From Thermococcus sp. (lineage in GTDB: Archaea > Methanobacteriota_B > Thermococci > Thermococcales > Thermococcaceae): a DNA stretch of 35,501 nt. Positions 8,119-13,471 of the stretch are shown one piece after another (the stretch's first letter is position 1; every line of letters starts with the position of its first letter). Position numbers and translations under genes: made by a program. Under the pieces are notes generated by a model. The model searched no databases. It saw only the letters and a program-made list of their open reading frames with translations, and had not been told where the DNA came from. Where the stretch lies: contig NZ_JALTCZ010000059.1 of the NCBI RefSeq assembly GCF_027008145.1, forward strand, positions 1 to 35,501, in the 5' to 3' direction.

Positions 8119-8925
8119 TTACCTCTCTTTTACCAGAATCCACCCCACCGGCGGGTGCTCTGCGCCTTTCTTCCACTTTTCGTAGGCCCTGTCCCACTGC
8201 CCCAGAAGTTTGGCGCGCTTTTCTTCGTCTTTTATCTTTTCCACATATTCCCGCGGGATGTAAGCTAGGTAGTGAGGCAACTTGGGCTCGAAGGTCCCGC
8301 TTTTGATTACTCTTCCTCCTGCTTTCTCCACAAGTTCTTGGAGTTTTTCAAGTGTAGGGTAGTGCAGGTCGTCCTTCTCACCGAAAAGGGCCTCAAATAT
8401 TTCCTCGCGGAGGTTGTAGAGCTCTAAATGTGCTTTCTGCCTCTCGTTCTCCGCTACAGGCAGGCTCTCGGCTATAAAGATCCTGTCCGCAACGCGGAGC
8501 ATCTCGGAGATGACTTTTATCATCGTATTCTCGCTCTTCATGCTTCTAATCCCATGAACGAGGACGGCTAAGTCAAAGGTCTTAAACGGAAATGGCAGTT
8601 CCCTCGCATTGAGCTTTAGCGGGAATATCCTGGGTTTCATGCCTGCCGATGAGATTATTTCCTCAAAGAAGCGCCATCTTGATTTATCAACCGCCACAAC
8701 GCGACCGGTTTCACCAACGAGATAAGCGAGCGGAACCGTCGTTAGGGCATGTGCCCCACAACCGATTTCGAGGACGTTCATTCCACTCCTAAGCGTTGCC
8801 TGCTGGAGAACGCGGAAGCGCTCGAGCATCTCAAGCTGAAGCCAATCGGGAGGTAATGGTGGTTCATCCCGGGGCGGGATTTTAGAGAGGATTTCTCTTT
8901 TGAATGTTTCTTCGCCAAAAAACAT
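8119..8925 (-). CDS. Class I SAM-dependent methyltransferase, substrate unknown
   Basis: 268 residues from the ATG at 8925; the track's GTG at 8934 falls in the GCGGTG that probably acts as ribosome binding site. Motif I is VLEIGCGAHALTTVPLA, the acidic end of strand beta-2 is VVAVDKS, and FDLAVLVHGIRSM follows as the motif IV region. It resembles UbiE/Methyltransf_11 enzymes, with a C-terminal helical part (DLHYPTLEKLQELVEKAGGRV). It is convergent with idsA, three bases between stops, and divergent from the ORF at 9089. The methyl acceptor cannot be told from the sequence. Confidence 0.8.
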   Translation of the reverse strand: MFFGEETFKREILSKIPPRDEPPLPPDWLQLEMLERFRVLQQATLRSGMNVLEIGCGAHALTTVPLAYLVGETGRVVAVDKSRWRFFEEIISSAGMKPRIFPLKLNARELPFPFKTFDLAVLVHGIRSMKSENTMIKVISEMLRVADRIFIAESLPVAENERQKAHLELYNLREEIFEALFGEKDDLHYPTLEKLQELVEKAGGRVIKSGTFEPKLPHYLAYIPREYVEKIKDEEKRAKLLGQWDRAYEKWKKGAEHPPVGWILVKER

Positions 8926-8977
8926 GGACAACACCGCAAAATGCTAAAGGGCTTTTCTTTAAGGTGTTTTCGGAGAA

Positions 8978-8992
8978 AGGGTTTTATAAGGT
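8978..8992 (-). promoter_or_regulatory. Probable promoter of the methyltransferase gene
   Basis: The minus strand reads CCTTATAAAACCC, a good TATA element about 60 bases before the ATG at 8925. The plus-strand promoter for the ORF at 9089 may use AACTTATAACC or ATTTTAAACC slightly further on (about 8999-9029). Confidence 0.45.
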
Positions 8993-9088
8993 GGGGTTGA
9001 ACTTATAACCGGTGGTGAAATTTTAAACCGTTTCTTGACACATAACTGTTTTAAGATAAACACTAATTTGTCTTATTGGTGGAATACA

Positions 9089-10039
9089 ATGTTGCCGATT
9101 GGAAAGTTAGAACCTTTCTTAGATTGGATTAGCAACCATCCACAAGATTCAACTGAGATTTTTAGGGTTCCCCATACCGTTCAGATTGTCCAAGAATCAA
9201 GGATTTCTTTAGAATTTCCCGTTCTCGTTGATTTCCCGAGGGTTGCCTACGAGGCGATTGGAACGTTCCTAATCAACCATATTTCAGAAGAACTAAATAA
9301 GAAAAGTCCACGAGAGTTGCTGTCTGTGCTTCTTAATGAAAAAGAACAGACAAATACGCCCCTCGGTCAGGTTACCTCTATGTTGAGGACCTTAGGAATT
9401 GAGTGGGATGCTCGCGTCTTTTCATTTAATGAAGGGATAATAATCACTGTTGAGCCAGAAGAGTATTACAGAAGTGTCTGGCCCAAGAAAATCCTCGATT
9501 TCATTGAGTTACTGAATGCCGACAAAGATTACCCAAGCAATATTTATGAAATTGCCTCGATACTCACTCCTCAATTACCCCTAAAAGAGTTTGCCAAGCC
9601 ATATTCAGTTGATCTTCCAATGATTTTTAAGCTTTTAGCTACTCAAGAGGACTTTAATATGATAGTTGAACTGGAAAAACTGCGGAAATCAATACTGTCC
9701 CTTTATGGACTAATAATGGCCTCAACTGAGCTTCCTGAGAACTATGGACGTCAGATTATCGCTTGGAATGACCTCACCAAAATATTCTATGACCTCTTGG
9801 GTCTCCTCAACCATTTGGAAGTCCTTTTGAAAGTTGGTCATTTTCATTCTGGTTACAATGTGCTACGCTCGTTGATACGGGATTTAGGTGATGCTCTGAT
9901 CGTCGTCTCCCTTGCTCAATACTACGAGAGTATAACATCAGAACTTAGGGATAAATCTCTCAAAGAGGAAGACAAGGAATCTGCCGTTTATGTTGGATTG
10001 GGGCAGGTAAAAGAAAAATTTGTTAATACATGGTTGTGA
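9089..10039 (+). CDS. Unrecognised AT-rich ORF, upstream half of a probable split gene
   Basis: 316 residues from the ATG at 9089 (GGTGG six bases upstream); the track's TTG at 9035 is less likely. I recognise no family. The C-terminal third is helical (SLYGLIMASTELPENYGRQIIAW, then VGHFHSGYNVLRSLIRDLGDALIV) and loosely recalls HEPN/DUF5677-like helical domains, which is only an impression. Codon use is clearly more AT-rich than in neighbouring genes, pointing to recent acquisition. The frame ends at a TGA (10037) just after an A-rich stretch, GTAAAAGAAAAATTT. The next ORF continues in the +1 frame and overlaps by 20 bases. Removing one base in the A run would join them into one protein of roughly 490 residues. 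Confidence 0.6.
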   Translation: MLPIGKLEPFLDWISNHPQDSTEIFRVPHTVQIVQESRISLEFPVLVDFPRVAYEAIGTFLINHISEELNKKSPRELLSVLLNEKEQTNTPLGQVTSMLRTLGIEWDARVFSFNEGIIITVEPEEYYRSVWPKKILDFIELLNADKDYPSNIYEIASILTPQLPLKEFAKPYSVDLPMIFKLLATQEDFNMIVELEKLRKSILSLYGLIMASTELPENYGRQIIAWNDLTKIFYDLLGLLNHLEVLLKVGHFHSGYNVLRSLIRDLGDALIVVSLAQYYESITSELRDKSLKEEDKESAVYVGLGQVKEKFVNTWL

Positions 10040-10565
10040 CAAAGAAGGACGGCCTTTCTCAGGAGATGCTCCATTGGATAGTCAGGAGGATTATGATAAG
10101 ACGTTTTATATTAAAACACTAGAAGAACTTCGTAAGGAACTTGTGCAAGGTATCTTTGTGGAGTTTTATAAGAATAAGCATGTAACTAGGGCTGTCAAAA
10201 AGAACAGAGCCAAAAGATACTCGCTCATTGATTTCAGGGATAGGGTATACTACGAGTCAGTTGACATGTTCATTCAAACCGGTAAATTGCCCTTTGAAGT
10301 CGCTTTAGACAGAACAGTTCTCATGCCCACAAAGAAGAGTTTTGAGAACCCTTCGAAGTTCCCTGTGGCCAATGAATATCACAAACTTAGTGATGTAGTT
10401 CATAATCCCGTTTTGGTGGACTTCCCACCTTATAGCTCTACAATTGAGTACCTTGGATTCCTCCATCATCTAAAACTAGTGCGGAAAATCTTCGAAGACG
10501 TCCTGAAGGTTTACCGCAGGAGAATTTCAAAAAACATCCAGAGAGAAGAAATGAGTAGGGATTAA
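10020..10565 (+). CDS. Unrecognised AT-rich ORF, downstream half of a probable split gene
   Basis: 181 residues with a TTG as first start and no good ribosome binding site, which fits a frameshifted continuation better than an independent gene. The region is coding-like from about 10075 (TFYIKTLEELRKELVQGIFVE). It is basic in the middle (KKNRAKRY) and ends in a helical part with YHKLSDVVHNPVLVDFPP. The string LSDVVH resembles the 'LSD.VH' turn of some HEPN-like abortive-infection and DUF4145-type proteins; this is a weak lead. PVLVDFP also occurs in the upstream ORF. It is convergent with leuS, two bases between stops. Confidence 0.5.
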   Translation: MLIHGCDKEGRPFSGDAPLDSQEDYDKTFYIKTLEELRKELVQGIFVEFYKNKHVTRAVKKNRAKRYSLIDFRDRVYYESVDMFIQTGKLPFEVALDRTVLMPTKKSFENPSKFPVANEYHKLSDVVHNPVLVDFPPYSSTIEYLGFLHHLKLVRKIFEDVLKVYRRRISKNIQREEMSRD

Positions 10566-10567
10566 TA

Positions 10568-13471
10568 TCACTCCACGTAAACAGCGGGCTTCAGCGGCAT
10601 CGCGGCCTTCTTCTTTCCTCCCCTGTCCTCCTCGACGTTGATGATTATCTCAAGGCCAAGCTCCTTCTCCATGAAGTCCTTTGCCTCCCTAAGGGCCTTC
10701 TCTTCGTTAATGCGCTTCACTTCAAAGGCGCGCTCCTTGATGAGCCTCTGGATGAGCCTGCTTACCTCCTTGCCGTGCTTTCTCATCTCTTGCTCTTTCA
10801 TCAGCTCTGCCATCGCGCTCTTGAAGTCCCTCTTTTCTGCCACAACTTCAACTACCTTCCACTTCCACTCTGGAGCGGTGTAGATGTAGGCCCTCTTGGC
10901 GTTTTCGAGCTTGGCGACCCTTATTATCTCCTTTATGTCCTCGATGACCGACTGGATGAAGTCTTCCTCGGCCTCAACGGTCTCGTTCCACCACTCGTCA
11001 ACCGGCTCCGGCCATTTCGCCAAGCTGATGAATCCCTCCCCGCCGAGCTTCTCCCAGAGCTCCTCGGCGATGTGCGGTGTGAAGGGTGCCATCAGCCTGA
11101 CCCAGACCTCAGCGAGCTTTCTCAACACAAAGCGCTTTGCTTCATCGTTCCTGCCCTCGGTTCTCCTCATATACCAGCGCAGGTCGTTGAGGACTGTGTA
11201 GAAGGCCCACTGGACGGCAGTCCTCGTCCTGAACTCCTCAAGGGCATTGGTTGTTCCTTTGATGGCTTTGTTCAGGCGGTGGAGCATCCATTTATCTATG
11301 TTCTTCAGCTCAACGCCTTCTTTGGCCTCATAACCTGAGAACTCGCTTATCAGCTCGTAGAACCTCTCGACCTGCCTGCGGAGCTTTCCGACCTCTTTTC
11401 TCCTCCAGTCGAAGTCGTTGTCGTGTTCTGCCAGGCTCATTATGTAGAGTCTCACCACATCGGCACCGTTTTCTTCGATGGCATCTATGAAGTTCAGCAC
11501 GTTGCCCTTGCTCTTGCTCATCTTCTGACCTTCCAGCGTTCCGAAGCCGTTTACCGCTATTCCCCTCGGCCAGTGCTCCCTCCTGAATATCGCCACGTGG
11601 TTGAAGATGAAGAAGGTCAGATGGTTTGGGATCAGGTCTTTGGCGGAACAGCGCCAGTCTAGGGGATACCAGTACTCGAACTCCCCCTTCATCTCGTGAA
11701 TTGTCTCCGCTGGAATTCCTGTCTTCTCGGCCAGCTCTTCCTCGCGCTCCTCGCTGAAGTCCTCCCTGAATATGTAGTCGAAGAACTCCCTCGTGAGTTT
11801 CTCCGGGTTGAGTTTGCCCTCTTTCCTCAGCTGGTTGATGTGCCTGCTTATCGTGTAGTAGGCCATGTATATCGTTGAATCGCTGAGGCTCTCGATTACC
11901 CAGTCCGGATCCCAAGGCAGGGGCGTTCCAAGGCCAACTTTCCTCGCGCAGGCCTTCTCCTCGAGCCAGTCTATAACAGCCTCGAACTGCGCTCTTCTGC
12001 TCTCGGGGAGTATTTTCATGTCAGCGAGAGCTTCTCTCGCCTTCTCCTTCCATTCCGGGTTGCCGTAGTCGATGAACCACTGGTCGTGGATTATCTTGAT
12101 TACCGCTTGGTTGCCAAAGCGGCTTATAACCGGCTTGTCCGCAAACTCGTACATTGTCTCCGCTATGCCCTTCTCGGTGATCTCCTTGGCAATGATGTCC
12201 TTTACTTCCTGGACGGACATGCCAGCGTAGGGCTTTATCTTGAATATTCCCTTGTGGTACTCCGCCTTATAGATGTTCTTGGTTGCCTCCTCAAGCTTCT
12301 CCCTGTCCTTCTGACTCCTCACGCCGAGCCTCTGAGCCTCCTCTACAGCTGGAAACTCGCCATAGCCCTCAAGCTCGATGAGGGAAATGTAGCTTATCTC
12401 CTCGACAACGCGCGGGTCTACCTCGTACTTGAGGAGTATTTCAGTTTCTTTCTTCAGGTCTTCGAGGGCTATGTGGTCGAAGGGGGCATGAGCTGGAACG
12501 CTCATAACTACACCGGTAGCGTTGTCCGGGTCAACGAACTCCGCCGGTAGAATGATGATTTCGTCACCAGTCACTGGGTTCTTCACGTACTTCCCTATCA
12601 GCTTTTCACCCTTGAACTCCTCTATGGTCTCAACCTCCCTGTCCTGGAAGGAGAGCTTGTAAGCGGCCTCCTTGCTGACTATCCAAGTTTCCTCCTTTCC
12701 GCCACGTCTGACCTTAGCCTTGACGTAGGTCGCGTTGGGATTCAGCCACATGTTGGTGACGCCGTAAACCGTTTCGGGCCTCAGTGTCGCCGCGGGGAGA
12801 TAGATAACCTCGCCGTTCTCCTCAAGGATGAACTTGATTATGACGTACTCCAGAATCTGGATGTCCTCGCCCTCCATGATGTCGTGGTCGCCGAGCGGGG
12901 TTCCAACAACGGGGTCCCAGCGAACGCGGTGCGCTCCCTTAACGACCAGTCCCATGTCCTTCAGCGTCCAGAACTGCCACTCGATGAACTTGCTGAAGGG
13001 CGGAAACAGTGAAGTCGTGTGGAACTCGCGCGTCCAGTCAACGGAGAAGCCGGCCCTTATGAAGGTCTCCTTCGCCGACTTCATGAAGTACTTCACGATC
13101 TCCTTCGGATCCTCGAACTTCCAGAGGATTTCCTCGGGGACTTTGTAGACGTCGCGGTATATGTGGATGGTCTTTGGGTCGCGGTTCTTTATCCTCTCGG
13201 CGATACCAACTATTGGAGCTCCGGTGATGTGCCACGCCATCGGGAAGAGGACGTTGTAGCCCTGCATTCTCTTAAAGCGCGCTATAACGTCTGGGATCGT
13301 GTAGGTTCTTGCATGCCCCACGTGTAGGTGGCCTGAGAGGTATGGAAAGGCGACCGTTATGTAGAACTTTTTCTCCTTGGGCTTGGCTTTTCTGTCGGGC
13401 TCGAAGACTCTAGCTTCCATCCACCTCCTCTGCCACTTCTCCTCAATGGCCTTGAAGTCGAGCTCAGCCAT
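10568..13471 (-). CDS. leuS: Leucyl-tRNA synthetase
   Basis: 967 residues, normal for archaeal/eukaryotic-type LeuRS. This class I synthetase charges tRNA-Leu and edits mischarged products. The HIGH motif is GHLHVGH in [15 protein letters not shown] (about residues 43-57), the CP1 editing domain has the threonine-rich TLRPETVYG, and the KMSKS loop is [12 protein letters not shown]. An anticodon-binding helical domain and a lysine-rich C-terminal part follow. The ATG at 13471 has GGAGG eight bases upstream. It lies downstream of prolidase on the same strand, but a 186-base gap with its own TATA element suggests independent transcription. Confidence 0.97.

Follow-up and report, generated by a model that had tools for sequence, protein, structure and literature searches.

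Two overlapping open reading frames on the forward strand of the window, by which we mean the whole 35,501-nucleotide stretch of Thermococcus sp. DNA that was analyzed (contig C59 of a 212-contig draft genome), are the halves of a single gene that has very probably been inactivated by an 11-base deletion. ORF1 occupies positions 9089–10039 (316 codons plus a stop, counted from its ATG) and ORF2 positions 10020–10565, with an overlap of 20 bases. Because ORF1 matches positions 1–316 and ORF2 positions 319–487 of one family profile, we treat them as parts of the same gene. The N-terminal 316 codons (9089–10036) end in the authentic residues FVNTWL and are preceded by GGTGG just 5' of the ATG (9072–9091), a plausible ribosome-binding site. 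The C-terminal 175 codons (10038–10565) lie in the shifted frame and carry the best-conserved motif of the family, NEYHKLSDVVHNPVLVDFPPYSSTIEYLGFLHHL. ORF2 opens with TTG, has no clear ribosome-binding site, and has its first in-frame ATG far inside. A first-pass annotation made from the sequence alone had described the overlapping frames, the frame change, the TTG start and an underlying protein of about 490 residues, and all of these hold in our analysis.

Intact homologues occur as uninterrupted single frames of 480–515 amino acids in G060, G010 and G009, all Thermococcus, in G113, which belongs to another genus of the same family, and in G337, which we take to be Methanocaldococcus-like, judging from its enolase. 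They are thus single genes rather than consistently separate pairs. ORF1 is 91% identical to the G060 protein, 54% to that of G010 and 52% to that of G009, and among named relatives with the gene the closest is a Thermococcus MAG (JALTBN010000027.1).

In a four-way DNA alignment, G060 reads TGGTTG-AAAGTATATTA-TGACAA where the window reads TGGTTG-TGACAA, with the joint at 10036/10037. The gap, which is not shared by the intact orthologues, removes K317, V318, Y319 and Y320, shifts the frame and creates a TGA stop at 10037–10039; the residues on either side of the lost ones, W315 and D321, are invariant in the family. An extra A in an A5 run had previously been put forward as the cause of the break. 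However, the run GTAAAAGAAAAATTTGTT is identical in the window and in the intact frame of G060, and the gap falls slightly further 3', which rules out slippage at the run. Since the run is unchanged in G060 and the 11-base loss lies just after TGGTTG, the FVNTWL end of ORF1 is genuine.

We propose that the ancestral gene encoded one soluble protein of about 490 residues. The deletion at codons 317–320 would have taken away four residues, moved the frame and made the TGA, and translation would then give a product of only 316 residues without the conserved C-terminal motif. Because the part of the protein that is best conserved is missing from this shortened product, we infer loss of function. 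We attribute that loss to the deletion by itself, as the second half of the gene shows no clear excess of damage. The dN/dS between the window and G060 is ∼0.27 in the first half and ∼0.20 in the second, and 13 resolved amino acid changes fall on the window branch compared with 7 on the G060 branch, a small excess. Furthermore, 84 of the 85 columns that are invariant among the five intact homologues are kept in the window, the exception being G145D. This conservation suggests that inactivation is recent or else that the deletion represents a variant of the strain or of the assembly.

An assembly error or minority strain variant in this draft or metagenome-derived contig would mean that the living organism carries an intact gene. 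The division of the genome into 212 contigs and the constraint apparent in the rest of the gene are both compatible with such an origin. However, short-read and homopolymer errors do not typically remove 11 bp from non-repetitive sequence, and the joint is not bordered by an exact direct repeat; we consider this explanation unlikely.

A second broken copy is present in the distant G202. Close to the hinge at which the window copy is broken it too changes frame, but here the frames could only be rejoined by a -1 shift (at AAATTTTC), and the copy lacks several motif residues as well as about 35 residues that follow the hinge. Because the shifts in the window and in G202 are opposite and the deletions different, independent decay fits the two cases better than halves that function separately. 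The surroundings of the G202 copy (L130:6544–17403) hold a tyrosine integrase, an AbiEi/AbiEii-like pair, a split GmrSD-like gene and two MNT/HEPN-like pairs, as judged by eye from the translations.

The break in G202 slightly raises the idea that the halves act as separate proteins of a split gene, translation of the second starting internally at the TTG. Such an arrangement would agree with the occurrence of breaks close to one hinge in two lineages and with the retention of almost every invariant residue in the two halves of the window copy. It is nevertheless highly improbable, given that ORF2 lacks an ATG near its start and a clear ribosome-binding site, that G202 has lost the residues listed above, and that the two parts are fused in all other homologues. 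A programmed +1 shift that fuses both frames into one protein, whether at UUG-UGA-C or in the A-rich run, is barely credible despite the +1 change with a UGA-C context exactly at the junction and the split of the G202 copy near the same position: five homologues need no shift, the A-run is the same in the intact G060 gene, the joined sequence VKENLLIHGC that the first-pass annotation obtained by deleting one A would put NLLIHGC in place of FVDTWLKVYY and so replace the conserved FV(N/D)TWL, any joining leaves four otherwise conserved residues (KVYY) missing, and G202 would require the opposite shift without recovering its further missing sequence, so that the direction of the break is not conserved. 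Decay is also the better prior, as pseudogene clusters (4010) far exceed recoding clusters (146) in the frame-transition survey of Antonov et al. (PMC3711429). Of the two possibilities raised at first, decay or programmed frameshift, the deletion and the intact relatives thus favor the former and the five unbroken homologues speak against the latter. The annotation should accordingly read deletion-disrupted gene rather than frameshift product, and the break itself is of an ordinary kind.

Deletion-disrupted as it is, the gene differs in composition and history from its neighbors. Its G+C content is 0.403 compared with 0.53 for the window, and the homologues have 0.39–0.41 in Thermococcus and less in AT-richer hosts. 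Synonymous divergence between the window and G060 is 0.16 for ORF1 and only 0.02 for codons 241–316, whereas it is 1.06–1.43 for three upstream genes and 1.79 for the gene beyond leuS. In leuS the value is 0.81 overall, falling to 0.47 at the gene-proximal end and lying at 0.66–1.25 further in. The low divergence of the gene and the gradient into leuS indicate recent exchange by recombination, the gradient being the trace expected of recombination tracts centered on the gene. Together with the G+C content, this contrast with the surroundings bears out the AT-rich, foreign look first noted. The gene is itself mosaic, since a block of about 190 bp (10070–10260, forward strand) has ∼62–73% DNA identity to G060 and saturated synonymous sites within flanks of 88–100% identity; the block suggests recombination within the gene. 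We envisage that the gene reached its position by horizontal exchange, as cargo of a slot swapped between strains. The swapping would proceed by homologous recombination through the flanks, and the divergence gradient supports such exchange.

The slot corresponds to positions 8934–10568 of the window. Its left border is a UbiE-like methyltransferase gene (8119–8934, reverse strand) that is often broken in relatives, and its right border is leuS (10568–13471, reverse strand), encoding an archaeal leucine–tRNA ligase, which is convergent with the broken gene and whose position is conserved in relatives. The methyltransferase gene is intact here, truncated or interrupted in G034, G004, G029, G028, G008, G035 and G018 (L093, L095–L099, L101) and reduced to fragments in G060. 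Across about 40 relatives (L084–L123) the slot, flanked by the methyltransferase gene in those that have it, either holds unrelated cargo, mostly convergent to leuS, or is nearly empty (∼0.1 kb in G020, for example). The present gene adjoins leuS in all four Thermococcus copies and in G113, and is convergent to enolase in G337.

Sixteen slot proteins (L086, L088, L111 and others) share nearly the same leader, of the WKPLFAVLLGLLMVGVTAGS type, while their mature parts belong to several groups between which no similarity was detected. The genes for these proteins, which in many cases precede an ABC operon or a gene for a small membrane protein, are possibly toxin/immunity-like secreted cassettes. 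In the window's own genome there are four leader-like matches elsewhere (L135, L136, L137, L138), of which three are weak and two contain an internal stop. Other slot cargo includes ABC-transporter operons, as judged by eye from the sequences, a PLD-domain protein in G035 and a 1510-residue NACHT/STAND-TPR protein in G030 (L091:1424–5953), of a kind often involved in antiviral defense. G060 and G113 each have the present gene alongside a leader-type cassette.

The gene itself is rare, being present in 7 of 396 genomes of relatives. No further copy was found in 394 genomes of the phylum of G202 or in 36 genomes of that of G337; bacterial genomes were covered by a single narrow pattern scan. A phage or plasmid origin was considered and rejected, as tblastn gave no match to the gene in phages and plasmids and viral contigs contained none.

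The intact protein is characterized by the signature NEYxKLx3VHxPxLVDFPPYxSTIEYLGFxHHL. No credible match to the family was obtained in Pfam, NCBIfam or PADLOC, and a PDB sequence search with the protein returned nothing. With intact homologues in other genomes, this agrees with the initial view that the family is uncharacterized. PADLOC models gave no match for the window pieces, G060, G010, G337 or G202 and one weak match for G113 (PDC-M22A, E 0.0016); we did not trust this match or those to phrog_37819, PF01653, PF12495 and PF03987. Because no hydrophobic leader is seen by eye at the N-terminus, we take the protein to be intracellular. AlphaFold2 models are mostly helical, but at a mean pLDDT of 39–40 they are too poor to judge a four-helix-bundle fold, as only three closely related alignment rows were usable. 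Residues 46–60 and 444–463 of the G060 protein (L003:1636–1680 and L003:2830–2889) each combine an LVDFP-type stretch with an E-x-x-G-type motif that comes after it, and this pair in the N- and C-terminal parts is possibly an internal repeat or a matter of chance.

A faint resemblance to HEPN-type defense proteins had been suggested for the C-terminal part. That the intact family is a divergent HEPN-type defense ribonuclease would be in keeping with the helix-rich prediction, poor as the model is, with the conserved Y-x-K-L-x3-V-H motif and with the STAND NTPase and PLD protein found in the slot of other strains. Yet the R-x4-6-H motif is not conserved, being absent from G060 and without an aligned pair across the five homologues, no family model matches, and hhalign against archaeal HEPN proteins gave a probability of 1.2% compared with 98% for a positive control. 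DUF5677, which the Y-x-K-L...H motif brought to mind, was likewise discarded, as PF18928 had no match in genomes G000, G009 and G010 and so misses the family. We therefore consider a HEPN identity very unlikely. As for the suggestion that homologues might neighbor defense genes, the Thermococcus copies lie beside housekeeping genes and it applies to the distant broken G202 copy only; the defense context of the gene is weak.

The most likely reading is that of a newly broken accessory gene, possibly conflict-related. The intact protein would take part, within the cell, in conflicts with viruses, plasmids or other strains, a role that we put forward tentatively from its patchy distribution, its exchange and the company it keeps. 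It is a more doubtful conjecture that the intact gene represents an undescribed intracellular conflict family (defense or anti-plasmid) of hyperthermophilic archaea, exchanged via a leuS-linked slot that elsewhere also delivers secreted, immunity-like and defense-like genes. Of more use than the break itself is the slot to which the gene points, a hypervariable site next to leuS in Thermococcus whose content is exchanged by recombination. The cargo of this slot, many of whose products are secreted with a common leader, forms a candidate set of genes for inter-strain conflict in hyperthermophiles that is testable in the genetically tractable Thermococcus.

Several described systems resemble parts of this picture. 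HEPN ribonucleases (PF05168 and relatives) are likewise mostly helical, as predicted here, and have a conserved histidine near a Y-x-K-L motif, but the present gene lacks their conserved R-x4-6-H and any sequence or profile similarity to them. The VARTIG loci of Thermococcales (PMC8416519) are also hypervariable, belong to the same archaeal order and combine genes in a strain-specific way. They center on an Ig-domain protein of arCOG07710, and a term search of that paper gave no mention of 'leucyl' or HEPN. The archaeal 'dark matter islands' (PMC4158269) similarly cluster rare, fast-evolving genes of unknown function, and Thermococcus-specific secreted families are listed among them. Unlike those secreted proteins, the product of the present gene has no evident signal peptide. 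Finally, the pseudogene clusters of the GeneTack survey (PMC3711429) likewise stem from an ancestral gene, with known homologues, that is now divided into two ORFs by a change of frame; the present case differs in that the exact lesion, the 11-bp deletion, is identified and lies in a horizontally exchanged orphan gene.
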